NCBI RefSeq assembly: GCF_000237995.1
Contig: NC_016605.1
Coordinates: forward strand, 558,001-622,000
Length of the DNA: 64,000 nucleotides
Direction of reading: 5' to 3'
Origin: Pediococcus claussenii ATCC BAA-344
GTDB lineage: Bacteria; Bacillota; Bacilli; Lactobacillales; Lactobacillaceae
In this document: in pieces, positions 32,129 to 46,553 of the stretch
Layout of the letters: each line of letters starts with the position of its first letter
Numbering within the stretch: position 1 is the first letter of the stretch
Program-made: the position numbers and the translations under genes
Notes under the pieces: model-generated
The model's input: the letters and a program-made list of their open reading frames with translations, nothing else
What the model was told of the DNA's origin: nothing
The model's database searches: none

Positions 32129-32496
32129 GGGGTCGTTAAGGATTCGACAGGTGTGGGTTGAACCGTGATTGCACTTCGTAGGTTGCGACTACGTTAAAAC
32201 GCTCAGTTTAAATTATAACTGCAAAAAATAATAACAATTCTTACGCTTTAGCTGCTTAATACCAGCTTAGTGTAGATCCAGCTAACTTTGTTCGCGGGTT
32301 TGATCTGGGTCCTAAATTAGCGGACTTGCGCTTAGTCATTTCGTTTGGATGATTAAGAAGAGGATTTTCAGACTAGTGGTTCATGGGTGCCCTGTCATAC
32401 GGCGTTTTGAATCATGAAACTTAAATAGTATGAATATAAGTGTAGAGGTTGCGGTGGCAACATGCTTGGACGCGGGTTCGACTCCCGCCGACTCCA
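32129..32496 (+). ncRNA. ssrA: Transfer-messenger RNA (tmRNA)
   Basis: tmRNA rescues stalled ribosomes and tags the unfinished protein for degradation, with SmpB (4498). The 5' end GGGGTCGTTAAGGATTCGAC and 3' end with T arm GCGGGTTCGACTCCCGC and acceptor CGACTCCA are canonical. The tag frame begins with gca at 32221 and reads AKNNNNSYALAA followed by a stop at 32257. CCA is not encoded. The 3' end, from the second half of the T stem, is the integration site of the mobile element; integration rebuilds an identical 3' end, so the gene stays functional. Confidence 0.96.
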
Positions 32497-32554
32497 TTTT
32501 TAATAATTTATCCCGTTGTATACAGCGTAAAAACGTTGATATGACGGGATTTTT
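32484..32554. repeat. attL (71-bp direct repeat)
   Basis: This copy lies within the 3' end of ssrA and its terminator. It matches 46483-46553 at 70 of 71 positions; the single difference is A versus T in the terminator loop. The crossover core must lie within it. Confidence 0.95.
32510..32554 (+). terminator. tmRNA terminator, duplicated by integration
   Basis: atcccgt pairs with acgggat and further inner bases pair; a short T run follows. It lies inside the att repeat, so both element ends carry one copy. Confidence 0.75.
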
Positions 32555-32582: not shown

Positions 32583-32616
32583 TGACTAAGTTCAAACTTA
32601 GTCAAAAACTTAGTCA
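32583..32616. repeat. Arm-type integrase site candidate, left end
   Basis: Two copies of acttagtcaaa in tandem (32596-32616), preceded by an inverted copy (tgactaagtt, 32584 onward). The same tandem pair occurs at 46401-46421 in the same orientation beside attR. In the circular form the two would flank the attP core. Confidence 0.7.
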
Positions 32617-32633: not shown

Positions 32634-33785
32634 TTATTCTAGAAATTTTTCTAGTTTGCTCAATGCCAAAATATTTTGTTCCTGTGTTGTATGAGTATAA
32701 ACATCTAAAGTTGTCGAACTGTCAGCACGAGAGTGACCTAATCTGGCTTGTGTCTCTTTGAGACCTACACCAGCTTGGTAAAGCATAGTGGCATGTGTAT
32801 GGCGAAACCCGTGAACGCTAATGTGTGGCAAGTCAGTATTTTCAATCAACTGTTTAAGCCACTTACTAGGGGTGTTCATTGATTTAAAATGGTTTTTGTT
32901 ACTAGCAAATACTAATTGTTCTTGGCTGTTAACATTGAACCCCAAACGAATGTATAGCGTCCTTTGAGCTAGTTTCCAGCGTTTAAGTGTATTTACTGTA
33001 TAGTCATCTAAATCAATTGTACGGCGTCCTGCGTTACTCTTGGGGGCTTGTATAATCAATTTACCACCTAAGCCTTGAGTTAAAGTTTTATTCACTCGTA
33101 AAGTCTTTTGAGTAAAGTTAATATCTTCCCAAGTTAACGCTAATAATTCGCCTTTGCGAACTCCTGTGTAAGCGAGTGTTCTAAACATGGTAAACTTTTC
33201 TAGCTCTTCCTTAGGGTCTAGTAGCGTAAAGAACATGTGTAATTGTTCTCTTGTCCAAAAGTTGGCAGGCTTATCGCCTCTACTGTCCATGAGCTTAGAC
33301 ATTGTGACCATTTTAGTGGGGTCACGCTTGATTAATTCTTGCTTAAAAGCATAGTCAAAAACCATTGCCGTATAGTTAAACCACTTTTTATAACTCTTTG
33401 CTTCCTTGTACCATTTGTTTAATATTTTTTGGCACATGTTAACAGTAATTTTTGATATAATAAAGTTACCGAAAGCGGGAAGCACGTGTACTTTAAAAAT
33501 ACGTCTAGTTTTTTCGTCCGTACTTTCTCGTACTGTATTTATATATTGGTCATGCCATTCAGAGTAAACTTCTGAAAATAGCATGTCCTTTTTTGTTTCT
33601 AAGCCATCTTGTTCATCTACCTCAATTTTTAGCCGAGATAGTGCAAGCGTGGCTTCTTTTTTTGTCTTGAAACCTCTCCGAGTGGTTGTTTTTTGCTTGC
33701 CAGTTGTTGGGTCAATACCTGTGTAGACTTGAAATTTGTATCTGTTCTGACCGTTCTTTAATGCATATTTGATAATTTGTGTCAT
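32634..33785 (-). CDS. int: Site-specific tyrosine integrase
   Basis: Integrates and excises the element at ssrA. The 383-residue protein has an N-terminal arm-binding domain (GIDPTTGKQKTTTRRGFKTK), a core-binding domain (about 70-170) and the catalytic domain. Catalytic residues are visible: Arg in YTGVRKGELLAL (about 209), HGFRHTHATML (His and Arg about 323-326), His in LGHSRAD (about 351) and the Tyr nucleophile in LDVYTHTTQ (about 363). It reads toward attL, the usual arrangement. A GGAGG site precedes the ATG. Full length, so presumably active. Confidence 0.96.
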   Translation of the reverse strand: MTQIIKYALKNGQNRYKFQVYTGIDPTTGKQKTTTRRGFKTKKEATLALSRLKIEVDEQDGLETKKDMLFSEVYSEWHDQYINTVRESTDEKTRRIFKVHVLPAFGNFIISKITVNMCQKILNKWYKEAKSYKKWFNYTAMVFDYAFKQELIKRDPTKMVTMSKLMDSRGDKPANFWTREQLHMFFTLLDPKEELEKFTMFRTLAYTGVRKGELLALTWEDINFTQKTLRVNKTLTQGLGGKLIIQAPKSNAGRRTIDLDDYTVNTLKRWKLAQRTLYIRLGFNVNSQEQLVFASNKNHFKSMNTPSKWLKQLIENTDLPHISVHGFRHTHATMLYQAGVGLKETQARLGHSRADSSTTLDVYTHTTQEQNILALSKLEKFLE

Positions 33786-33984: not shown

Positions 33985-34803
33985 TTAGTTTAATTTTACA
34001 AATTCAAATGAAATGTTTTGATTGAATTTTTTGTATTTAGAGCGGTCTCTATTTGGAATATCAAATTCGAATTTTGGCATAGACGATTCCCCATCAATTT
34101 TAACAACTGCACGCATGAATTCACCTTTTTTACCAACTGTCCGCAAGCTAATAATTATAAATTTATTTAAAAATAACTTTGCTAAATTAGAATCACCAAT
34201 AAAAACATTCCACCAATTAGTAATTATCAGAGATAACATTTTCTTAAGGTTTTTTGTATTGAGTTTTTCAACAAAATCAATAATTGGACTCATGTCCTCA
34301 TTTTCATCCTTTTTATAAAATGTAAATAAAATGAGACTAATATTAAAGCTTATGCTTTTTACATCCTTGGGCTTGGGGTCTAAAGGCATTAAACCAAACT
34401 GAAAATCAAAAGGCTCGAGATTACCAGTTTTTAATCTACCAACAAAAATAGCAACTTCGTCAGGTACCTGTGGAGGAGCTACTTTATTGTGCTTGCTGTC
34501 CTTTGCTGTGTGTGAAATGTTGGCTTCGAATGGAACATTTTCTTCGTTTTCAACATATACATTGTCAAAAGGGTACATGTATCTAAAGGAAAAGGTCGTA
34601 GTATCTTGTTGTTCAGTTAGAAGATCGCCCAAAGACACATTGAAGTAGTTCATTAACTTTTCCAAAGTGTCAAACTGTATTCCTTTGCTCTCGCCGTTAA
34701 CCATTGAAGTTAAGGTTGGCCTTGAAATACCAGTTTCGGTTGAAAGCTTATTTATGCTCAATTTTTTTGAATGCATAAGTTCCTTTAGTTTTAGCTGTAA
34801 CAT
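33985..34803 (-). CDS. Master repressor, Cro/CI-type HTH, no visible S24 domain
   Basis: The 272-residue protein has an N-terminal XRE HTH (about 1-66; GISRPTLTSMVNGESKGI is the recognition region). The remaining ~200 residues are a domain I do not recognise. I see no Ala-Gly cleavage site with the Ser-Lys dyad that marks LexA/CI self-cleaving repressors. That fits a satellite repressor released by a helper-phage protein, as with Stl of SaPIs, rather than by RecA; this is inference. It is divergent from the early rightward operon, with candidate operators between. Confidence 0.82.
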   Translation of the reverse strand: MLQLKLKELMHSKKLSINKLSTETGISRPTLTSMVNGESKGIQFDTLEKLMNYFNVSLGDLLTEQQDTTTFSFRYMYPFDNVYVENEENVPFEANISHTAKDSKHNKVAPPQVPDEVAIFVGRLKTGNLEPFDFQFGLMPLDPKPKDVKSISFNISLILFTFYKKDENEDMSPIIDFVEKLNTKNLKKMLSLIITNWWNVFIGDSNLAKLFLNKFIIISLRTVGKKGEFMRAVVKIDGESSMPKFEFDIPNRDRSKYKKFNQNISFEFVKLN

Positions 34804-34964: not shown

Positions 34965-35171
34965 TTGAATAATAATATTTATTTTAATCTCAAACAAGCT
35001 ATGGAATATATCAATGTTAATAGTTATCACACTTTACATAACTTGATTGACGATGGTCTTAAGGTCTCGGTTATAAATGGTGTTAAAAGGATTAGCAAAA
35101 AAGACATTGATAATTATATGAAATCCTTGACGGAGGTGAGAGTACATGAACATACCACTCAAGCTAGATGA
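34965..35171 (+). CDS. Small HTH protein, excisionase-like
   Basis: A 68-residue protein with MerR/excisionase-type HTH features: LKQAMEYINVNSYHTLHNLI and a basic wing (VSVINGVKRISKKDIDNYM). It starts with TTG at 34965 after a strong AAAGGAGG site. It is the first gene of the early operon, the position of regulators or xis in satellites. The next gene overlaps its end by 26 nt. It could be an excisionase or an early activator; sequence alone cannot decide. Confidence 0.75.
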   Translation: MNNNIYFNLKQAMEYINVNSYHTLHNLIDDGLKVSVINGVKRISKKDIDNYMKSLTEVRVHEHTTQAR

Positions 35172-35415
35172 AGAGGGACTAGCACAAATTAAAGCAGTAA
35201 TGTTTGAAACTGCACAAGAGGCATTTAAAGAGGCTGGTAAGAAACAAAACTTTCCTCGTTATATGAGTAAGAAAGTGGCTAGTCAGTATTTAGATGTTTC
35301 ATTTGTTACATTGCAGAAGTTTATAGAATCAGGTTTGCCAGTTATCCAAATTGGAGGAATTTCCAAGATTGATAAGGCAGACGCAGACGAGTTTTTGAAC
35401 ACACATAAAATTTAG
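35146..35415 (+). CDS. Small HTH protein (excisionase/DNA-binding)
   Basis: An 89-residue protein with an N-terminal helical region (about 1-35) and a C-terminal MerR/Xis-like HTH: YMSKKVASQYLDVSFVTLQK followed by FIESGLPVIQIGGISKIDKADADEFL. The ATG at 35146 has GGAGGTGAGAG. It resembles the previous gene in the HTH part, so the pair may have arisen by duplication and divided roles (integration control and transcription). Confidence 0.78.
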   Translation: MNIPLKLDEEGLAQIKAVMFETAQEAFKEAGKKQNFPRYMSKKVASQYLDVSFVTLQKFIESGLPVIQIGGISKIDKADADEFLNTHKI

Positions 35416-35665: not shown

Positions 35666-35891
35666 ATTTGAATTGAATCATAACATTACATTAGAACAGC
35701 TGAAAGGGTTAAGCGATAATGCTTTGCAACTATTATTAATTCTTTTAGATGGCAGGATTCATCAAGATAAGGCTACAGCTAAGAAGCTCAAAATTACTCT
35801 TGATGAACTTGGACAATGCTTTTTAGAGTTATCTAAGCATAATATTATCAAATTAAAGAATGGCAGTGAGGCACAAGCTAATGGAAAGTAA
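35655..35891 (+). CDS. Small winged-helix-like protein, 78 aa
   Basis: A 78-residue soluble protein; the pattern LSDNALQLLLILLDGR followed by ATAKKLKITLDELGQCFLEL looks like a winged helix, as in replication-initiation or regulatory proteins of phages. An AAAGGGG site precedes the ATG. The prim-pol gene starts inside its 3' end. The function is inferred only weakly. Confidence 0.6.
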   Translation: MTARFELNHNITLEQLKGLSDNALQLLLILLDGRIHQDKATAKKLKITLDELGQCFLELSKHNIIKLKNGSEAQANGK

Positions 35892-36723
35892 ACCATTTAA
35901 TCGTGCTAAGTATCTGGCCACAACGTTTGGCGTGAAGAGTTATGTGACTAACCCACAAACACGGGCACCATATGAAGAGGGCTACCCTGCCAATGCCACT
36001 AATGATATTGATAAGTTGGAAAAGATGTTTAGTGAGCACCTGAATGCCAATGTGAATATTAATTTGAAAGCCAGTGATTTACTAGTTTTAGATGTTGATA
36101 GACACGAAGAGAACAAAAACGGTGTTCATGCTCTATCAGAGTTGACCACTAAACATGGAGAGTTACCAGATACTTACTGGGAATCAACCCCGCATGACGG
36201 CATTCATTTCTTCTTTAAAGTTCCAGCTGGGGAAGAATTAAAAGCTAAGGTTAATTTTAAAAATGGGTTGGAATTAATTAACGACCAAATAATTATTGCG
36301 CCCTCTGCAGGCTACAAACCTACCAAAGATAGGGATTGGACAGATATAGCCGTGGCACCTCCGTGGTTGATTGAAATGGCTAGAGTGAAGAGAACGACCA
36401 CCATTTCAGACAATGTAAAGCCATTTAGGAAGAAAGCACTGGCTTACTTCATTCATGATGTTGTGACGGCACCACAAGGCAATAAATCAGGGCGAAATAG
36501 TTATCTAGCCAAAATGATTGGCAAACTGTTAGCAACTGGAACCGACCCACAAGAAGCCTATGATTTTACATTTAATGTGCTAAACCAGAGTTTTGGCGGT
36601 TATCCGTTGCAAGATAAAGAAGTGAACAGAATATTTAAATCGATATTAAAAGAAGAAGCTAAGAGAAGAGGCGTAATGAGTGGAAAACAAAATACCTCAA
36701 GAAATGAAAGACCTAACGAATAG
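35881..36723 (+). CDS. Bifunctional primase-polymerase (prim-pol) domain protein
   Basis: A 280-residue protein with an AEP-type prim-pol domain: the catalytic acidic pair is in DLLVLDVDRH (about 66-75) and the histidine motif in STPHDGIHFFFKVP. A C-terminal helical domain (about 180-280) is typical of primase C-terminal regions. It should make primers for replication of the element. I start it at ATG 35881, after a GTGAGG site; a longer frame begins at 35860. It overlaps the next gene by 44 nt. Confidence 0.88.
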   Translation: MESKPFNRAKYLATTFGVKSYVTNPQTRAPYEEGYPANATNDIDKLEKMFSEHLNANVNINLKASDLLVLDVDRHEENKNGVHALSELTTKHGELPDTYWESTPHDGIHFFFKVPAGEELKAKVNFKNGLELINDQIIIAPSAGYKPTKDRDWTDIAVAPPWLIEMARVKRTTTISDNVKPFRKKALAYFIHDVVTAPQGNKSGRNSYLAKMIGKLLATGTDPQEAYDFTFNVLNQSFGGYPLQDKEVNRIFKSILKEEAKRRGVMSGKQNTSRNERPNE

Positions 36724-38242
36724 CCTCACAGTTGCGCCTGATGATTTTAGGCAACTTTCATTTGATGAACATGCTGAAAAAGGAGCAAATACATCTGCCG
36801 AGTGGGAAGCTATAGGGCGTAGTTATGTTGAATATTTAAATAATAGTTCCCCTGAATGGCTAATTTTTAAATTGAGTAGTCCATCTAAACGTAGCCAAGA
36901 CATTAAGCATATTATTTTGTATGACAAATTAGGCGATGAGATTATTCAAGAAAATATGATTCAAAGATATTCAGCGTTACCAGAGGGAGCATATTATCAG
37001 AAAGAATACGGAACGTGGAAAACATTCCATCGCAACGAACTTCAAGCACTCGTTAAAAATGAAGTGATAAAAAAGCTAAAAGAAGTTGGTGTGTCATGGA
37101 GCTATAACGATAGTCGTTCAACAACCGAGTACGTAATTGGTGCCACTTATCAGCCTAATATACGAGGTAACCCATTTGAAAGTGCTAACCCTGAACTTGT
37201 AGCATTCAAGAATGGCACATACAACATCAACAGCGGGAAATTACAAGATAATTCCCCTGATAACATGTTGGTTAATGCTCACGATTACGAACTTAATATC
37301 AGTGGTAAACCGACCCCAGCCACTAATAAATTACTTGAGGGAATGATTACAGAACCAGCGGTTAACTTGTTTAAACAATTCGTCGGTTACATGTTTTATC
37401 ATTCCCATGCTCCAATGCAAGACGCCATTTTTTTACACGGTAATGGTGGCGAGGGTAAAAGTACGTTGTTGAATTACATTAGTAAAGAAGTATTAGGGAT
37501 TGATAATGTTTCAGCCGTTAAACCCCAAGACCTTACAGGCGAAAATAGGTTCAAGTTAATTCAATTATATTTGAAAGAAGCAAATATAGTACCTGATATA
37601 AAAAAGGGCTATTTACAAAACACTGATGTGCTTAAAACGCTGACAGGTGGCGACACCATGGACGCCGAAGAAAAAGGTGTGCAAGGCATTAATTTTACTA
37701 GTTATGCAAAACTGCTTTTTAGTGCCAATGATTTACCAACTTTCAGTGATAACTCAACCGGTTTTAAAGATAGATTGATGGTAATTGACCTAGTTAATGG
37801 CGATACACGTAAGCCTGATAACCACTTTTGGGATAGTCAAGACATGGATAAGGTAAGAGAAGAACGTAGTAGTTTTGTATTTGATTGTTTGACCAGGTTC
37901 AAAGAAGCGTTAGACAAACATAGATTTGATAAGCCTAGAAGTGTGATTGAAGCCACAGAAGCATGGCATAAAGATAATGACCACTTTGGAGAGTTTTTAG
38001 ATGAATGGTGTGAGATTGATTTGACTAGTGGTAAGGGCGAAAAAGCAAGTTACGTAGTTAGTGCTTATAAGGAATTTTGCCAGATGAATAACTATTCAGA
38101 CAAGACGACCGCACAAACCATTACCAGTAATCTGGCTAAATTGGGAGTGAAAAAGGATAAGTCAACTAAAGGCTGGAATAACAGCGACTATCAAGCGTGG
38201 CGATTTATAGGGCTGCGTTTGTTAAAAGAAAATTATCCATAA
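36680..38242 (+). CDS. P4-family SF3 primase/helicase (D5_N type)
   Basis: A 520-residue replication initiator. The N-terminal ~200 residues resemble the D5_N/primase-linked domain. The SF3 helicase has Walker A GNGGEGKSTLLNYI (about 253-266), the Walker B-like region ending LKEANIVPD and sensor segment AKLLFSANDLP. The C-terminal winged-helix-like region may bind the origin. It starts with GTG at 36680. Satellite replicons usually pair such a protein with an adjacent iteron origin, and one is visible directly downstream. Confidence 0.9.
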   Translation: MENKIPQEMKDLTNSLTVAPDDFRQLSFDEHAEKGANTSAEWEAIGRSYVEYLNNSSPEWLIFKLSSPSKRSQDIKHIILYDKLGDEIIQENMIQRYSALPEGAYYQKEYGTWKTFHRNELQALVKNEVIKKLKEVGVSWSYNDSRSTTEYVIGATYQPNIRGNPFESANPELVAFKNGTYNINSGKLQDNSPDNMLVNAHDYELNISGKPTPATNKLLEGMITEPAVNLFKQFVGYMFYHSHAPMQDAIFLHGNGGEGKSTLLNYISKEVLGIDNVSAVKPQDLTGENRFKLIQLYLKEANIVPDIKKGYLQNTDVLKTLTGGDTMDAEEKGVQGINFTSYAKLLFSANDLPTFSDNSTGFKDRLMVIDLVNGDTRKPDNHFWDSQDMDKVREERSSFVFDCLTRFKEALDKHRFDKPRSVIEATEAWHKDNDHFGEFLDEWCEIDLTSGKGEKASYVVSAYKEFCQMNNYSDKTTAQTITSNLAKLGVKKDKSTKGWNNSDYQAWRFIGLRLLKENYP

Positions 38243-38506
38243 TATCCAAACGTTATCCAGAATTTTATCCATAAATAATACTACTCTAACAAGGGATTAT
38301 CCATAATATCCATAAAATATCTATAAATTGAATATATAGAAAAAATAAACACATATGATGAATTATTCATATACATTTGTTTTTCTATATAAAAGGATTG
38401 AAAGTTAAAAATTATGGATTTTATGGCTAAATCGTTGTGGCTCTAAAGAAAAGTATGGATATTTTTGTGGATATTGAATAATATTTTATGGATAATTTTG
38501 GATAAA
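38233..38506. other. Candidate replication origin with inverted iteron sets
   Basis: At least six TATCC iterons (TTATCC or ATATCC at about 38233, 38242, 38253, 38265, 38297, 38306) lie left of an AT-rich centre (about 38312-38410). Five copies in the opposite orientation (GGATT, GGATAT or GGATAA at about 38416, 38457, 38468, 38490, 38500) lie to the right. The region follows the helicase gene and has no open frame. Two opposed iteron sets around an AT-rich core is the layout of PICI origins. Confidence 0.7.
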
Positions 38507-38755
38507 TTTCAATCCCCTATCAAGAATTAAAAGAGTACACAACCTATAAACCACACAACCATGATTGCCCCGACCAAAATTACTACTATAGTTCAACATG
38601 GTTACTACTAAGAAGTAGTCTCAAACGGTAAAAAGGTGGCTGAAAATTGAACCACTGAATAAAAAAAGACATAGCTATTAGGGCTATGTCCGCTTGTAAA
38701 ACACCACATGTTCATTCAATCGATAACTAATTATACCATGATTGGCGGGTGTTTT
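38507..38755. other. Non-coding stretch before the late regulator
   Basis: No gene is seen. It holds a minus-strand terminator-like hairpin (38661-38690: poly-A, then gacatagc paired with gctatgtc) and the leader of the ArpU-like gene. Confidence 0.55.
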
Positions 38756-39118
38756 ATGGCTAAGTATGACGAAGTAGCAAGAGTTTTAAAACAAGTACCA
38801 AGGTTAAAACGTATTGCAGGTAAAAGACTTACTGATTTGCGTTCGCCTAGTCCTGATGGTATGCCACACGGCAATGGTGTTGAAGTTGATGAACGTATTA
38901 TCGGTAGGTTGGACGCACAAAAAGAGTTAGAAAATATTATGTTTTGTTTATCGTTCTTACGAGACGATTACCAACAAATTTTGTTAAAGAAGTATATGAC
39001 CGCTGATAAGCAGACAGATATAGCAATAGCGATGGATTTAGGAATTAGTGACGGAACATTATACCGATGGCAAAGTAAAGCACTACAAGAATTTAAAGAA
39101 GCCTATTACGGCTATTAG
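38756..39118 (+). CDS. ArpU/RinA-like late transcription regulator
   Basis: A 120-residue protein with a C-terminal sigma-region-4-like HTH: FLRDDYQQILLKKYMTADKQ then TDIAIAMDLGISDGTLYRWQ. ArpU-family proteins activate late packaging and head operons in Gram-positive phages. It stands between the replication genes and the packaging genes, which is the expected place. The ATG at 38756 has a GGCGGGTG site; a longer frame from 38708 lacks one. Confidence 0.82.
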   Translation: MAKYDEVARVLKQVPRLKRIAGKRLTDLRSPSPDGMPHGNGVEVDERIIGRLDAQKELENIMFCLSFLRDDYQQILLKKYMTADKQTDIAIAMDLGISDGTLYRWQSKALQEFKEAYYGY

Positions 39119-39343: not shown

Positions 39344-39545
39344 ACATACAGATAAGATGACAGAGTTATTTAAGATTAGGAATCGTGAAAGTTATCACAT
39401 GCAAGAGTTAATCAAAGAGTACAAAGACAACGAGAGCAACGTTATATACATGGAGATATTGACGATTGAGGAACATCAAAAGATATTAGATGAAGAGATT
39501 CAAGAAGAAATGAATGAGCTTCAAAAGACGGAGAGTGATAGCTAA
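39333..39545 (+). CDS. Hypothetical element protein, 70 aa, coiled-coil-like
   Basis: A charged, Glu/Lys-rich helical protein (RNRESYHMQELIKEYKDNES) without known motif. The ATG at 39333 is 9 nt after a GGAGGG site; a frame extending to 39306 has no site. The stop codon overlaps the next start (TAATG). Confidence 0.65.
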   Translation: MKNKHTDKMTELFKIRNRESYHMQELIKEYKDNESNVIYMEILTIEEHQKILDEEIQEEMNELQKTESDS

Positions 39546-39889
39546 TGAAGAAGTACGACATCTCACGCATGAAGCAACGGGTAGAGTTTGGGAGCTATAC
39601 ATCTGGCGAAAGGAACCCCAACACTGGTATGGCGAAACAAGTGTACACACCTAGCTTCTCAATGTGGTGTGGCGATTACTCAATGACAGTTAACCAATCT
39701 GTTAATGTTACAGGTCGACTAGTAGAAGCTGAACGCATGATAGTGATTCGACATAACAAACAAGTTAATGACCAGTTACTTGCCAACCTTGATGGTAAGT
39801 TATACACAATCATCTCTATCAATTCAGATGATGACTTGAATGCGTTTGATGTGCTGGCATTGAAGAACTATCGAGGCATCAAAGTCTAA
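39545..39889 (+). CDS. Head-tail adaptor (head closure) protein
   Basis: A 114-residue protein of the phage head-closure family (SPP1 gp16/HK97 gp10-like): MKQRVEFGSYTSGE..NTGMAKQVY, WCGDYSMTVNQSVNVTGR and the C-terminal LDGKLYTIISINSDDDLNAF are characteristic. Such proteins cap the connector and provide the surface for tail docking. Here the gene lies before HNH and terS, away from the other connector at 45409, which is unusual for a phage. Confidence 0.85.
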   Translation: MKKYDISRMKQRVEFGSYTSGERNPNTGMAKQVYTPSFSMWCGDYSMTVNQSVNVTGRLVEAERMIVIRHNKQVNDQLLANLDGKLYTIISINSDDDLNAFDVLALKNYRGIKV

Positions 39890-40266
39890 TGGCAAAGAAG
39901 TTTTGTAATCATGCTGGTTGCCGTGCGCTGGTGGCATTGAACGTTAAATACTGCGAGAAACATCAGAAACAAGCTAATTCAGATACTTACCATCACAGAC
40001 GCTACGAGCAGGGTAGAGACCAGTTTGAAGCATTCTACCGTACTAGTGCTTGGAAAAAGATGAGCAGACAAATGTTAATAAGAAGTCCAATTTGTAAGCT
40101 TTGTTATCAAGAGGGAGTAATCAGAAAGGCGGATATCGTTGACCACATTACTCCAATTCGTGAAGATTGGTCTAGGCGGTTAGATTGGGACAATATGCAA
40201 ACTTTATGCATATATCATCATAACCAAAAGACGAACATTGAAAATCAACGAAGAATTAAAAAATAA
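39889..40266 (+). CDS. HNH endonuclease of the packaging module
   Basis: A 125-residue HNH nuclease. Cys pairs CNHAGC..C and CKLC bind zinc; the active-site motif is IVDHITPIREDW and the following N-x8-H-x3 is DNMQTLCIYHHNQKT. HNH proteins next to terS are needed for cos-type DNA cutting and packaging in many Gram-positive phages. It overlaps the adaptor by 1 nt. This supports cos rather than pac packaging. Confidence 0.92.
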   Translation: MAKKFCNHAGCRALVALNVKYCEKHQKQANSDTYHHRRYEQGRDQFEAFYRTSAWKKMSRQMLIRSPICKLCYQEGVIRKADIVDHITPIREDWSRRLDWDNMQTLCIYHHNQKTNIENQRRIKK

Positions 40267-40485
40267 AATCTAATCGTTCATGAATGCTGTTAAATTAACA
40301 ATGGGGGCGCATAAAATTTAAGTGAAGACCGACACAAAACTTTTCGCTGAATTGAAATCCGAAGTATAAAGCAGTTATTTTATACACAAAGTCCGCTATA
40401 TTAATGTATAATTATGCAAAAGATGAATAAATAAATGAAAGGAGTGTATAGCTGTTTTGATGGAACTTGATAAAGATAAAATTAA
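40267..40485. other. Intergenic region with candidate cos site
   Basis: This is the only sizeable gap in the packaging operon. atgggggcgc (40301-40310) is a G-rich island in otherwise AT-rich DNA, the kind of sequence found at cos ends between HNH and terS. A TATAAT at about 40406 and a strong AAAGGAG at 40438 follow. The cos assignment is a guess from position and composition. Confidence 0.35.
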
Positions 40486-40926
40486 TTGTTCATGCCACAC
40501 ATTGACGTGTTAAATGATCGGTCAGACGCAAAAGAAGCGCTAGAAAACTATCCAAAGCTCACTACGAAGCCACCTAAAAACATGACAGGAACGGCATCAC
40601 ACAACTGCAATAGAATAGTGCCACTTTTGAAAAAGAACACTAGCGTTAGTGAATTAGATTTCAGAACGATTGAAATTTATTGCAACGCTGTCGCCATGTA
40701 TGAAAAATCACAGAACCTCATTACTACCCGTGGCTTAGTCATTACCACTAAGACAGGAGTTCAGAAAGCTAATCCGTATTTAGCAACTCAAAATGAATCA
40801 GTTGACCGCATTAATAAATGTGCGAAAGAGTTAGGCTTAACCATTTCATCACGTGCCAGGATTGAAGTGGCTAGGGCAAAGAAGAAACACAAATTAAATG
40901 ATAAATTTGAGGCGATTCTTGAATGA
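40486..40926 (+). CDS. terS: Terminase small subunit, P27 family
   Basis: TerS recognises the packaging site on the DNA and loads TerL. The 146-residue protein fits the P27 family: PPKNMTGTASHNCNRIVPLL, then LDFRTIEIYCNAVAMYEKSQ and the C-terminal LGLTISSRARIEVARAKKK. The frame opens at TTG 40486 or ATG 40492, neither with a good site, whereas a strong AAAGGAG lies upstream of an ATG at 40461 in another frame, so the start is uncertain. The stop overlaps terL (ATGA). Confidence 0.86.
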   Translation: MFMPHIDVLNDRSDAKEALENYPKLTTKPPKNMTGTASHNCNRIVPLLKKNTSVSELDFRTIEIYCNAVAMYEKSQNLITTRGLVITTKTGVQKANPYLATQNESVDRINKCAKELGLTISSRARIEVARAKKKHKLNDKFEAILE

Positions 40927-42632
40927 TTGATTCAGTTAAAGAGTATTGCCTTGATGTATTAGCTAATAAGATTGTGGCTGGTCAAAAGATTAAACAAGCT
41001 TGCCAAAGACATTTAGACGATTTGGAAAAACAAAGTAGTAAAGAATTTCCATACTATTTTGATATTGGACAAGCCGAAAAAGCTATTAAATTAATTGAGA
41101 TGTTACCAAAAACCGATGGCACAAGTTTAAAAATGCTTCCGTTTCAAAAGTTTATTGTTGGCTCCCTTTACGGGTGGCGAGAAGACGGAACGGGTTACCG
41201 AAGATTTAGACAGGCTTATATTTCAATGGCACGTAAGAACGGTAAGACGTTTTTAGCTAGTGGTATGGCAGTTAATACATTACTTGGCGAAAAGTTACCA
41301 GCAAAAAACCGGCAAATTATGTTTGTCGCCAACTCATCAGGGCAGGCACATTTAGGCTATGACATGTTGTCTAGCTCACTTAATCAGATTAGAAAACAAT
41401 CTAAGTACATTCGCGACCGAGTGAAAGTTCAGAAACAGGCGATTACTGATTTGAATAGTGATAGTAAGGCGGTTGTGTTGGCTTCCGATACCAAGTCGCT
41501 AGATGGTATGGCTGGTACATTGATTGTCTATGATGAATTTCACAAGAGCAAAACTAGAGAAGTTTACAATGTCATGAAATCAGGGCAAGTTAAAGAACCT
41601 AATGCGTTGCTTACTATTATTTCTACCTCTGGTTTAGATTTAAATGTACCAATGTATCAAGAATATCAAACGCTATCAAAAGTGTTAGCGGGCAAAAGCA
41701 AAGCCGACCAGTATTTTGTAGCAATTTGGGAGTTAGATGATAAAGAAGAAGTTTTTGAACAATCAAAATGGGAGAAAGCTAACCCACTATTTGGTGATGA
41801 AGATGTTAGAAAACAAATGACTACTAGCATTCAAAGCGATGTAGATTTAGCCGTTGAACAAGGCAATTTAACGCCTGTTCTGGTTAAAAATTTTAATATG
41901 TGGGAACAAGCTAGGTCAGATAGCTATATCGCTGTGGAAGATTGGAACAAAGGACTTAGTAGTGAGTTGGATATTCATAACCGTGATGTGTATTTTGGGG
42001 TTGATTTGTCTAAGAGTTCAGACTTGACGGCGGTTAGTTGGTTGATTCCTACACAAAATGGCAGATTCTACGTTGATTCACATGCCTTTGTAGCCACCAA
42101 ATATGGCTTAGACCATAAGATAAAGACTGATGGCATAGATTACCGTTCACTAGAACGCAAGGGCGAATGTTCAATTACCAAGCTTGAAAGTGGTGTGATT
42201 GATTACGATGATGTGTTTAACTTCATGCGGGAAATGGTCGGTAAATATAACTTGGTTGTAAAAGGCGTTTGCTATGACCCCTGGTCTTTTGATTATTTAT
42301 TACCCGACTTTGAAAAAGCAGGTTACCCATTAATTGAAATTAGACAAGGCGTTAAAACTTTGGGGATTCCTACCAAGCGATTTAAGGAAGAACTTATTAA
42401 GGGTAATATCAAACATTCAGATAACAAGCTGTTAGCGTTTAACGTTAACAATGCCATTTTAAAATATGACATTAATAACAACCCCATGATTGATAAGGCG
42501 AAAGCTTCAAACAAGATTGATGAAGTAGGTGCCTTGATGAATGCTTATACAGCGGGTATGAACTATTTTGACGAACAGGAGGCAAGTAAGGCAAACAATG
42601 AATTTTATGAAAGTGAAGAATTTTCTTTCTAA
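40923..42632 (+). CDS. terL: Terminase large subunit
   Basis: TerL is the ATP-driven packaging motor and nuclease. The 569-residue protein has a Walker A-type ARKNGKTFLASGMAV (about 103-117), Walker B LIVYDEFHKS (about 200-209) and the RNase H-like nuclease with YFGVDLSKSSDLTAVSW (about 355-371, first Asp) and VCYDPWSFDYLLPDFE (about 449-464). It belongs to the Terminase_1 family and is full length. It overlaps terS by 4 nt. Confidence 0.95.
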   Translation: MIDSVKEYCLDVLANKIVAGQKIKQACQRHLDDLEKQSSKEFPYYFDIGQAEKAIKLIEMLPKTDGTSLKMLPFQKFIVGSLYGWREDGTGYRRFRQAYISMARKNGKTFLASGMAVNTLLGEKLPAKNRQIMFVANSSGQAHLGYDMLSSSLNQIRKQSKYIRDRVKVQKQAITDLNSDSKAVVLASDTKSLDGMAGTLIVYDEFHKSKTREVYNVMKSGQVKEPNALLTIISTSGLDLNVPMYQEYQTLSKVLAGKSKADQYFVAIWELDDKEEVFEQSKWEKANPLFGDEDVRKQMTTSIQSDVDLAVEQGNLTPVLVKNFNMWEQARSDSYIAVEDWNKGLSSELDIHNRDVYFGVDLSKSSDLTAVSWLIPTQNGRFYVDSHAFVATKYGLDHKIKTDGIDYRSLERKGECSITKLESGVIDYDDVFNFMREMVGKYNLVVKGVCYDPWSFDYLLPDFEKAGYPLIEIRQGVKTLGIPTKRFKEELIKGNIKHSDNKLLAFNVNNAILKYDINNNPMIDKAKASNKIDEVGALMNAYTAGMNYFDEQEASKANNEFYESEEFSF

Positions 42633-42783
42633 ATATATTCAAACGCTTCTGCTGTTGATAGGGCTAATAGCAACTACGGCGGGTGTGTGGCTAATATTTA
42701 GTTATAAAGTTGGCATAATCATGATTGGAATAGTGTTTGTTTTACTGGCATTCATGATTAATCAAGAAAAGAAGGGAGGTTAA
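42598..42783 (+). CDS. Small two-helix membrane protein
   Basis: A 61-residue protein with two hydrophobic segments (IQTLLLLIGLIATTAGVWLI and VGIIMIGIVFVLLAFMI) and a short polar hairpin between. It overlaps the 3' end of terL and ends 3 nt before the portal gene; a GGAGG lies 14 nt upstream of ATG 42598. Small proteins of this kind between terL and portal are common in lactobacillus phages, with no known role. Not a holin by context, since no lysin is present. Confidence 0.6.
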   Translation: MNFMKVKNFLSKYIQTLLLLIGLIATTAGVWLIFSYKVGIIMIGIVFVLLAFMINQEKKGG

Positions 42784-42786
42784 TAA

Positions 42787-43923
42787 ATGGCATTTTTTAT
42801 AGGAAATAGCAATACAAGTCCTGAACCAGATAGTGACACCGCATTTTTGGACGCTTTAGTGAGTTATTCTAGTGACAATGATAGTAATTATGTTGGTGCT
42901 GGTGCTTTGCGTAACGCTGATGTGTTCACAGCAATTAAAATCATTGCCAGTGACATAGCTAGTAACCCACTGGAAAACAATGACCCTACCCGTGTAAATA
43001 TTTTGAATGTGAAACCTAATTCAGTTATGAATGGTTTTAATTTCAAGTTTGCCCTGGCATGTAACTTGCTTTTGAATGGGAATGCGTTCGCAGAAGTTGT
43101 GATGAATGGTAATCGGTTGAGAAGTTTGGAATTTCTACCAAACAATAAAGTGACCGTAACTCAAGATGATGTGAGTGGTCGAGTAGCTTATTACTACCAA
43201 CAAACTAATGTGAAACGGCGTCAGATTGCGTCTAGTAACATATTGCATTTTAAATATTTTACGCAAGACGGCGTAACTGGCATTAGTCCGCTGTTTGCAC
43301 TAAAAGACCAGTTACAAATTCAGAAGTCGGGTAATGGAATGTTGAGAGGCTTCTTTCAAAGTGGTGTAAATGGTACTTCGATATTGAAAGTACACAAAAG
43401 TGATTTATCTAAGGAAGCAAAAGATAATATCAGAAACAAGTTTGAAGAAAGTAACAGCGGAAACAATGCATTAAGAACGGTTGTTCTTGATGATTCAATG
43501 GACTTATCAAATTTGACTGTCAACACTGATGTATTGAAACTTGTGAACGGTAATGACTGGAGCACACGCCAAATTGCGGAAGTATTTGGGATACCACCAG
43601 AACGGTTAGGCGTGGAGAATGAACATTCTAGTAACGAACAATCTAACATACTTTATTTACAAAATTCATTAGGTCACTACTTCGATGTATTTACTAGTGA
43701 ATTAAATAATAAGTTGGCTGGTGTATATACATTCAATACTGATAGGCTATTCAGTTCAGACCCTAAGACTAACCAAGATTTAGCTGTAGAGGCTTACCAG
43801 GGTGGAGTACTTACCAGAAATGAAGCAAGAACACGTTTAGGAATGAATACAGTCGCAGACGGCGACACATTTTATACAAAGGAGAGTGATTTGAATAATG
43901 GAAGACCGCAGATTAACGATTGA
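42787..43923 (+). CDS. Phage portal protein, HK97 type
   Basis: Forms the dodecameric DNA gate at one capsid vertex. The 378-residue protein has the portal pattern: RNADVFTAIKIIASDIASNP, LLNGNAFAEVVMNG, HFKYFTQDGVTGISPLFALK and WSTRQIAEVFGIPPERLGVE. A GGGAGG site precedes the ATG. The capsid-protease gene overlaps its end by 26 nt, in the normal portal-protease-capsid order. Confidence 0.94.
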   Translation: MAFFIGNSNTSPEPDSDTAFLDALVSYSSDNDSNYVGAGALRNADVFTAIKIIASDIASNPLENNDPTRVNILNVKPNSVMNGFNFKFALACNLLLNGNAFAEVVMNGNRLRSLEFLPNNKVTVTQDDVSGRVAYYYQQTNVKRRQIASSNILHFKYFTQDGVTGISPLFALKDQLQIQKSGNGMLRGFFQSGVNGTSILKVHKSDLSKEAKDNIRNKFEESNSGNNALRTVVLDDSMDLSNLTVNTDVLKLVNGNDWSTRQIAEVFGIPPERLGVENEHSSNEQSNILYLQNSLGHYFDVFTSELNNKLAGVYTFNTDRLFSSDPKTNQDLAVEAYQGGVLTRNEARTRLGMNTVADGDTFYTKESDLNNGRPQIND

Positions 43924-45409
43924 AGCGGAGTTAAGGGCTGATGAACCAGAGGCAGAAACTCCCGAAGATAATACAGACACACAAGAAAATTCAGATACAA
44001 CTAATAATAAAGATGATAGCAAGGACGGTAAGACCGTCTCCGGCTATGCTATGGTTTGGAATACACCAAGTAAACCTCTGAAAGACGGGGACACTTCATT
44101 TACTGAAATTATCACGCCAGAGGCATTAAGTGGCACAGATTTAAGTAACGTTATTTTGCTATCTAATCATGATTACAGCGAGCCTCTAGCAAGTGTTAAG
44201 GCGGGTACTTTGAAACTAGAAACTGATGATAAAGGGCTTCACTTTGAAGCTACTTTACCTAATACCACTGCTGCTAATGATACCTATGAAAATATCAAGG
44301 CTGGTAATATTGATTCAGCAAGTTTCAGGTTTAGTAATGTTGATGACAGTTGGGAAAAAGATGACGCAGGCAATATCACAAGAACGATTAATCAGATTAG
44401 AGATTTATTTGAAATTTCGACTGTAACAGTTCCTGCTTATGATGATACAAATGTGGCAGTTGATACCCGTAGCTATGAAAAATTTATGAATAAAGAAAAT
44501 GAGGAAAGTAAACATATGGAAAATACAATTATTGAAAACACAGAAGAAGCAACAGAAACACGTTCATTTGAAGATTATATTAGAAGCAATGGGGAAACTC
44601 GTGACGGTTTAACCACTGATGGTAATAAACCAATTATCCCAAGTGAAGTTATTACACCGATTTTTGAATATAAACAAAATAAGGCTAATTTAGGTCAGTA
44701 CGTAACAGTTAAGACGGTTTCAACTGGAGCAGGTATTTACCCAATTTCAGTTAATAATAACGCTACATTGGCTACTAAGGCAGAGCTTGCACAGATTGCT
44801 GATGTTGATAGTGGTATCACAGGGGTAGAGTTCAAAGTAGTAACCCGTGCTGGTAAAATCTTCTTATCACAAGAAATTATTGATGATTCAGCCATTCCAA
44901 TCGTTTCAGAAGTTCAAGCACAGTTGCAGAAATTAGTTAACAATACCGACAACACTAACATTGTGGCATTACTTAAAAAGGCAACTAAGAAAGCAGTAAC
45001 CAGCTTGGACGATGTTAAGACTACATTTAATGTTGATTTAGACCCCGCTTTGAATAAGTCAGTGGTTACTAACCAAGGTGGTTTCAATTATCTTGACCAA
45101 CTCAAGGACAACGAGGGGCGTTATATGTTACAAGCTGACCCTACAAGCCCTACAGGTAAATCATTATTCGGTGCTCCAATTATTGTGGTTCCAAGTGTTC
45201 TATTACCAGATGAAACAGCAGGCTCATCATTCCCAATGTTTGTAGGGGACTTAGAACAATACATTGCCTTGTTCAAACGTAATCAAGTATCTGTAAACTG
45301 GCAACAATTCGACAGCTATTCAAGTGGTCTTGCGGTAGTTGTTCGTAACGATTATGAAGTGATTGACGCTAATGCCATGGTTTACTTAACTATTGGGGCT
45401 GGTAAGTAA
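43898..45409 (+). CDS. Prohead protease-major capsid protein fusion
   Basis: One 503-residue polypeptide carries both functions. Residues ~1-200 are an HK97-type (U35) protease with its His in LLSNHDYSEPLASV (about 90) and Ser in DSASFRFSNV (about 140); ~205-250 is a short acidic linker in place of a scaffold; ~250-503 is an HK97-fold capsid (PIIPSEVITPIFEYKQ, LGQYVTVKTVSTGAGIYPI, LFGAPIIVVP, YSSGLAVVVRNDYEVID). An internal ATG (44472 or 44517) could give capsid alone. There is no stop or frameshift between the domains. Confidence 0.9.
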   Translation: MEDRRLTIEAELRADEPEAETPEDNTDTQENSDTTNNKDDSKDGKTVSGYAMVWNTPSKPLKDGDTSFTEIITPEALSGTDLSNVILLSNHDYSEPLASVKAGTLKLETDDKGLHFEATLPNTTAANDTYENIKAGNIDSASFRFSNVDDSWEKDDAGNITRTINQIRDLFEISTVTVPAYDDTNVAVDTRSYEKFMNKENEESKHMENTIIENTEEATETRSFEDYIRSNGETRDGLTTDGNKPIIPSEVITPIFEYKQNKANLGQYVTVKTVSTGAGIYPISVNNNATLATKAELAQIADVDSGITGVEFKVVTRAGKIFLSQEIIDDSAIPIVSEVQAQLQKLVNNTDNTNIVALLKKATKKAVTSLDDVKTTFNVDLDPALNKSVVTNQGGFNYLDQLKDNEGRYMLQADPTSPTGKSLFGAPIIVVPSVLLPDETAGSSFPMFVGDLEQYIALFKRNQVSVNWQQFDSYSSGLAVVVRNDYEVIDANAMVYLTIGAGK

Positions 45410-45678
45410 TGAGTGTTACCGTAGACGACATTAAACGTAGTCTAAGAATTGATTTAACTGATGATGATGAGATGATTCAGACCTACATTAATACAGCAAA
45501 TCAATATGTATTAGACGCTGTGGGCGGTCAAACAGATATTACCAAGTTTGAACAATATGACTTTGCGGTTAGTCTATTAACACAATTCTGGTATGCAAAT
45601 CGTAATATAGATATGAAAGAAACTCCCTATCAAGTTGTATCAATGATTCAACAATTACGAGGGAAAACGTTACTTTAA
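45409..45678 (+). CDS. Head-tail connector protein (gp6-like)
   Basis: An 89-residue helical protein of the phage connector family: MSVTVDDIKRSLRIDLTDDD, QTYINTANQYVLDAVG and YDFAVSLLTQFWYANRN are characteristic of HK97 gp6/QLRG-type adaptors that bind below the portal. Its start overlaps the capsid stop by 1 nt. It is the last long gene of the element; no tail gene follows. Confidence 0.88.
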   Translation: MSVTVDDIKRSLRIDLTDDDEMIQTYINTANQYVLDAVGGQTDITKFEQYDFAVSLLTQFWYANRNIDMKETPYQVVSMIQQLRGKTLL

Positions 45679-46345: not shown

Positions 46346-46421
46346 TATTGCCCTGTAAGATGGTTAAAAATAAAACTGAAAAAGAATTGAAAGTTAAGTG
46401 ACTTAGTCAAAAACTTAGTCA
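46346..46421. repeat. Arm-type sites at the right end
   Basis: tattgccctgtaag (46346-46359) is the inverse of the motif at 33811. The tandem acttagtcaaa pair (46401-46421) repeats the one at 32596 beside attL. Both lie 60-140 bp from attR and are probably integrase or excisionase binding sites. Confidence 0.7.
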
Positions 46422-46482: not shown

Positions 46483-46553
46483 CCCGCCGACTCCATTTTT
46501 AATAATTTATCCCGTTGTATACAGCGTTAAAACGTTGATATGACGGGATTTTT
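46483..46553. repeat. attR (71-bp direct repeat)
   Basis: Second copy of the ssrA 3' end and terminator, 13,999 bp from attL; 70 of 71 bases match. Chromosomal sequence resumes to the right. Confidence 0.95.

Follow-up and report, generated by a model that had tools for sequence, protein, structure and literature searches.

In Pediococcus claussenii ATCC BAA-344, a stretch dense in short opposed repeats lies between the gene for an SF3 helicase and the gene for an ArpU-family regulator. We asked what this stretch does and which element it serves. The window, meaning the whole stretch of DNA that was analysed, comprises 64,000 nucleotides (NC_016605.1, positions 558,001 to 622,000; coordinates below count from its first letter). 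Judging from the sequence and from comparison with relatives, we are highly confident that the region serves as the replication origin of a capsid-forming PICI-like satellite of ~14 kb, working in the way proposed below. The origin and its neighbouring replication genes are laid out as follows.

35860..36723, plus strand: Prim-Pol primase/polymerase (PF09250 and PriCT_1), the presumed primase for the origin
36680..38242, plus strand: SF3/D5-family initiator helicase, homologue of SaPI5 Rep; C-terminal winged helix at about residues 435-510, wing 496-505, proposed iteron reader
38234..38312, plus strand: left iteron set, six TATCCA units and a degenerate seventh (TATCTATA at 38318); inner doublet 38298/38307, 9 bp apart
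38313..38412, no strand: AT-rich centre (85% AT), presumed DNA-unwinding element, a function inferred from PICI origins (PMC6092414)
38413..38504, minus strand: right iteron set, inverted; TATGGATT at 38413, degenerate TATGGCTA at 38422, TATGGATA at 38454, TGTGGATA at 38466, TATGGATA at 38487 and TTTGGATA at 38497

The left arm holds six TATCCA units in the same orientation (38234, 38243, 38254, 38266, 38298 and 38307) and the right arm five TGGAT motifs in the opposite orientation (38415, 38456, 38468, 38489 and 38499). The right-arm units begin at 38413, 38454, 38466, 38487 and 38497; GGATA is present in four of the five and GGATT in the one at 38413. Degenerate units stand at the inner edges of both arms (38318 on the left, 38422 on the right), and the latter forms with 38413 the right inner doublet, 9 bp apart. 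TATCC/GGATA was counted 10 times in the region; 5000 dinucleotide-preserving shuffles gave 1.4 on average and never more than 6. For k-mers of 5-8 bases, none of 1000 shuffles reached the repeat number of the observed k-mer, and the region is the densest such repeat cluster of the 64-kb window. The host genome assembly contains the doublet TATCCATAATATCCA in exactly two places, both within the origin region. The centre of ~100 bp (~38312-38412) is 85% AT while the window as a whole is 63% AT; 0.02% of the 96-bp stretches in the window are equally AT-rich.

The first iteron shares bases with the stop codon of the helicase gene (38240-38242), and no ORF of at least 50 aa was found within 38243-38707. 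The sequence-only reading had described six and five opposed iterons about an AT-rich centre, directly after the helicase gene and free of open frames, and all of this was confirmed. It did not contain the mirror symmetry of the spacing: when the degenerate 38422 unit is counted, the inner spacings are 12-32-9 in the left arm and 9-32-12 in the right. We also noticed a hairpin resembling an intrinsic terminator on the minus strand (38667-38691), between the origin and the ArpU gene, with no minus-strand gene nearby.

Could the units be DnaA boxes (similar to TTATCCACA), which would make the region an origin driven by DnaA or a site that titrates it? Seven units match the box with one mismatch, but an exact TTATCCACA is absent from the region, and at the same places in relatives we found unrelated units (TGGAACA, CGGTGACA, TGACACA, CATGCAAA). 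Moreover, the unit class goes with the helicase C-terminus. The DnaA-box reading was rejected because of the missing exact box and the other units in relatives, and we hold it to be very improbable.

The origin belongs to an element of ~14.0 kb that is bounded by a 70-bp direct repeat at ssrA. Upstream of the helicase gene, the element carries the Prim-Pol, an excisionase-like HTH protein, a CI-like repressor and a tyrosine integrase. Its other features are these.

32484..32554, plus strand: attL-like repeat, 3' end of the tmRNA (ssrA) gene and its terminator
32634..33785, minus strand: tyrosine integrase (PF00589, Arm-DNA-bind_4)
33985..34803, minus strand: CI-like HTH repressor
35146..35415, plus strand: small HTH/excisionase-like protein
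38708..39118, plus strand: ArpU-family late-gene regulator
39545..45678, plus strand: head and packaging genes, starting at 39545 (head closure), 39889 (HNH), 40486 (TerS P27), 40923 (TerL), 42787 (portal), 43898 (protease-major capsid fusion) and 45409 (head-tail connector)
46483..46553, plus strand: attR-like repeat, the same 70 bp with one mismatch; the relative G002 has a single full copy

The element thus has an integrase, att sites at one particular host gene (the 70-bp repeats at ssrA), a divergent repressor and prim-pol/rep module, and its own capsid and packaging genes. Tail genes were not recognised in it, and a few small ORFs are without assignment. Since the att repeat includes the terminator-like hairpin of ssrA, the end of this gene would be restored upon integration. 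Just inside each att site lies a 21-bp repeat, ACTTAGTCAAAAACTTAGTCA, made of two ACTTAGTCA units (32596-32616 and 46401-46421); these are possible integrase arm sites.

By its genes, the element is a capsid-forming PICI-like satellite. Its size of ~14.0 kb and its gene set agree with the capsid-forming PICIs (Alqurainy et al. 2023), as their gene set is summarised in PMC10690885: HNH, TerS, TerL, portal, protease/capsid and connectors are shared, with no tail genes. It differs from the described members in its integration at ssrA and in its Pediococcus host. The element might still be a fossil with a decayed, non-functional origin, as the degenerate units at the inner edges (38318 and 38422) could suggest. 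However, the genes for the helicase, the prim-pol, the integrase and the head proteins have all kept open reading frames, and the two att repeats differ by a single mismatch and are otherwise intact, so that we consider decay improbable.

The candidate initiator of the origin is the helicase. Besides D5_N and DUF5906 domains it has a match to TIGR01613 above the cut-off. A helicase-family profile found SaPI5 Rep (7ola) with an E value of 3e-40, and the same structure was the top Foldseek match of the helicase AlphaFold model (mean pLDDT 85). In this model the C-terminus is a winged helix, with helices at 435-443, 456-469 and 478-487, strands at 491-495 and 506-510, and the wing between the strands. 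According to PMC7581432, the C-termini of SaPI Rep recognise the downstream origin, apparently as two hexamers. We propose from sequence and model that the C-terminal winged helix of the helicase likewise reads the iterons.

The PICI origin lies immediately 3' of rep and "always" has two iteron sets around an AT-rich region, a layout that is common to all PICIs identified and present in no other known bacterial replicon (PMC6092414). For several PICIs, autonomous plasmid replication of rep-ori was shown or cited (PMC6092414). The window has the same immediate 3' position, with the first iteron overlapping the rep stop codon, the 6 + 5 opposed units around the 85% AT centre and a SaPI-Rep-type initiator helicase. 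The satellite origin suggested by the sequence-only reading is therefore supported by the helicase type, by the cf-PICI-like element between att repeats and by the published layout (PMC6092414). Since this layout has already been published for PICIs, the origin type is known and the window origin adds to it. The replicons of SaPIbov1, SaPI1, SaPI5, EfCIV583 and EcCICFT073 resemble the window in the origin 3' of the helicase gene and the two iteron sets around an AT-rich region, in the adjacent primase and in the C-terminal domain as iteron reader (PMC6092414, PMC7581432). Unlike in these replicons, the iteron sequence is specific to the window element, and primase and helicase, which are fused in SaPI5 Rep, are separate genes.

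The alpha protein of phage P4 is comparable to the window helicase and primase: it is a fused SF3 helicase and primase with a C-terminal winged-helix origin-binding domain. P4 replication requires ori and a distant crr, unlike the window origin. SCCmec Cch2 is also a D5-type helicase with short repeats downstream, and its C-terminal domain binds AAGTG repeats just 3' of its gene; as described in PMC7581432, it has only three repeats and no two-arm layout.

We then compared the locus with its counterparts in several dozen Lactobacillaceae and other Lactobacillales genomes, in IMG/VR and on plasmids. In genome and viral contigs, relatives were found by an alignment query; a scan with the single protein gave none, and an exact scan of viral contigs for the doublet gave mostly scattered single matches. 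The nearest named helicase relative in the collections is that of Pediococcus pentosaceus DSM 20336 (61%). In most relatives opposed repeats stand directly 3' of the helicase gene, and the largest gap between them, usually rich in AT, measures ~80-100 bp; in ~30 relatives the position is kept and the opposed layout mostly kept. The units vary and include TTAGTGAAA, TGGAACA, CTGGAACA, CGGTAACA, CGGTGACA, CTGACACA, CATGCAAA, TGGATA, TGACACA and others. The origins with the closest helicase (L002/L095, 61-64% identical) use TTAGTGAAA, spaced 12-11-44-9 and 9-44-11-12. Conservation of the iterons thus failed for their sequence and held for position, opposed orientation, spacing and phasing. The change in iteron sequence tracks the helicase C-terminus, as it should if that domain reads the origin.

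The spacings between units of the same orientation are phased at ~10.6-10.7 bp (R = 0.62 in 24 origins), while 500 randomised sets gave a maximum of 0.20. With spacings of at least 28 bp only, R was 0.60. The CGGTRACA class of Lacticaseibacillus (L011, L012) has its doublets in reversed arm order, and we found no clear AT-rich gap in these origins; this origin may be rearranged or shifted.

The comparison also bears on whether a regulator of the downstream late genes (ArpU/head) uses the repeats as operators. In favour of this, the repeats stand between rep and ArpU, and promoter-like matches are slightly above chance (8 vs 4.3). However, two opposed arms that hold up to 12 phased units and enclose an AT-rich core are not the layout of an operator. 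In relatives the gene that follows varies (ArpU, head closure, unknown), yet the repeats remain attached to rep, and the units change together with the rep C-terminus. We regard an operator function as very unlikely.

For the origin reading, the link between the iterons and the helicase end was followed within clades of near-identical helicases. Clade A comprises 19 Lacticaseibacillus-type helicases with three unit classes and 124 variable columns. Every column that separates CTGGAACA from CGGTRACA falls within residues 442-520 of the helicase in the window, and just two columns separate CGGTAACA from CGGTGACA, namely 494 (N/P vs S) and 505 (N vs S), which flank the wing in the AlphaFold model. 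In clade B (10 helicases, TGGATA vs TGGAACA, 155 variable columns), the separating columns are only 458 and 492-520. Although variable columns are distributed along the protein, class-segregating residues in the two clades are confined to the last ~80 and ~60 residues, essentially the winged helix.

The DNA around these genes points to an exchange. L025 and L005 share 98-100% identity across most of the flanks (1.2 kb upstream, 1.1 kb downstream). Around the rep stop, from about -100 to +260, identity drops to 38-63% (72% to +320). L008 and L012 behave in the same way. The exchanged cassette consists of the last ~30-50 codons of rep and the ori, ~420 bp. Some synonymous sites near the rep end segregate with the iteron class too and, since the rep C-terminus adjoins the origin, hitch-hiking alone could link them, so that co-segregation taken alone is no proof of contact. 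Contact is the better reading because both borders coincide in two clades and because of the known roles of the SaPI Rep and Cch2 C-termini in origin binding (PMC7581432). Across all relatives, a partial Mantel test of C-terminus against iteron similarity, allowing for core distance, gave r 0.14 (8 of 2000 permutations were as large). This weak correlation is probably due to saturation of the deep comparisons, and we therefore used the segregation within clades. The chances seem evenly balanced that the rep end (winged helix and wing) and the origin form an exchangeable address cassette of ~420-540 bp between near-identical elements, which would set compatibility groups so that differently addressed copies share a cell, with residues 494 and 505 (Ser vs Asn/Pro) deciding one iteron base (CGGTGACA vs CGGTAACA).

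Some relatives are found outside the chromosome. Plasmid PLA6 of Lactiplantibacillus carotarum (L024, NZ_OX443576.1) is circular, 14,527 bp long, and carries prim-pol, rep, a TATCCA origin and head genes; no integrase was detectable on it. Pediococcus damnosus pL21533-2 carries a GTTCCA version of the module. By analogy, both are natural hints that the prim-pol/rep/ori module may replicate by itself. Two lineages, Loigolactobacillus backii and Lactiplantibacillus xiangfangensis, have two replicons per cell, one of each class; the former case is plasmid pL11992-4 and recurs as two contigs in strain JCM 18665. In L141 (4236-5852 and 20916-22523) and in L098 with L100, closely related satellites or plasmids lie in one cell, with TATCCA vs GTTCCA units. 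Co-residence, known here from just these two lineages, fits compatibility groups.

We propose that the element is de-repressed and then excised at ssrA. Through its C-terminal winged helix, the SF3 initiator helicase would bind the opposed iterons and form one assembly on each arm, and the phased, mirror-symmetric iterons would set two rings face to face across the AT-rich centre. The centre would melt, the rings would load and the neighbouring Prim-Pol would prime synthesis. The iteron sequence would serve as an address, read mainly by residues in or beside the wing; this address appears to differ among relatives and to be swapped as a unit with the last ~30-80 codons of rep. In the literature covered, which lacked the founding SaPI origin paper and the cf-PICI paper, we found no earlier description of the mirror symmetry, the 10.6-bp phasing or the swap of wing and ori.

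The locus adds a new origin for a little-studied group, the capsid-forming satellites of lactic acid bacteria. Its relatives are natural minimal pairs for the choice of origin by a ring helicase initiator: a pair with 98-100% identical flanks differs mainly in the wing and origin block, and a single iteron base varies along with two residues. Such pairs make initiator-origin specificity, satellite incompatibility and the geometry of double-ring loading testable by swaps of a few residues or one base.

Of 41 relatives, 25 also carry a near-palindrome, ACGTTGATATATCAACGT, in the origin region, whatever the iteron class (e.g. L026, L032, L034 and L035). Where inspected, the dyad lies between the inner and outer iterons; equally high scores were reached by 29 of 490 background windows. 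As a part of the origin in our window it was rejected, since it is not clearly present there (best score 4.0). The strongest matches to ACGTTGATATATCAACGT in the window are the ssrA terminator within both att repeats.
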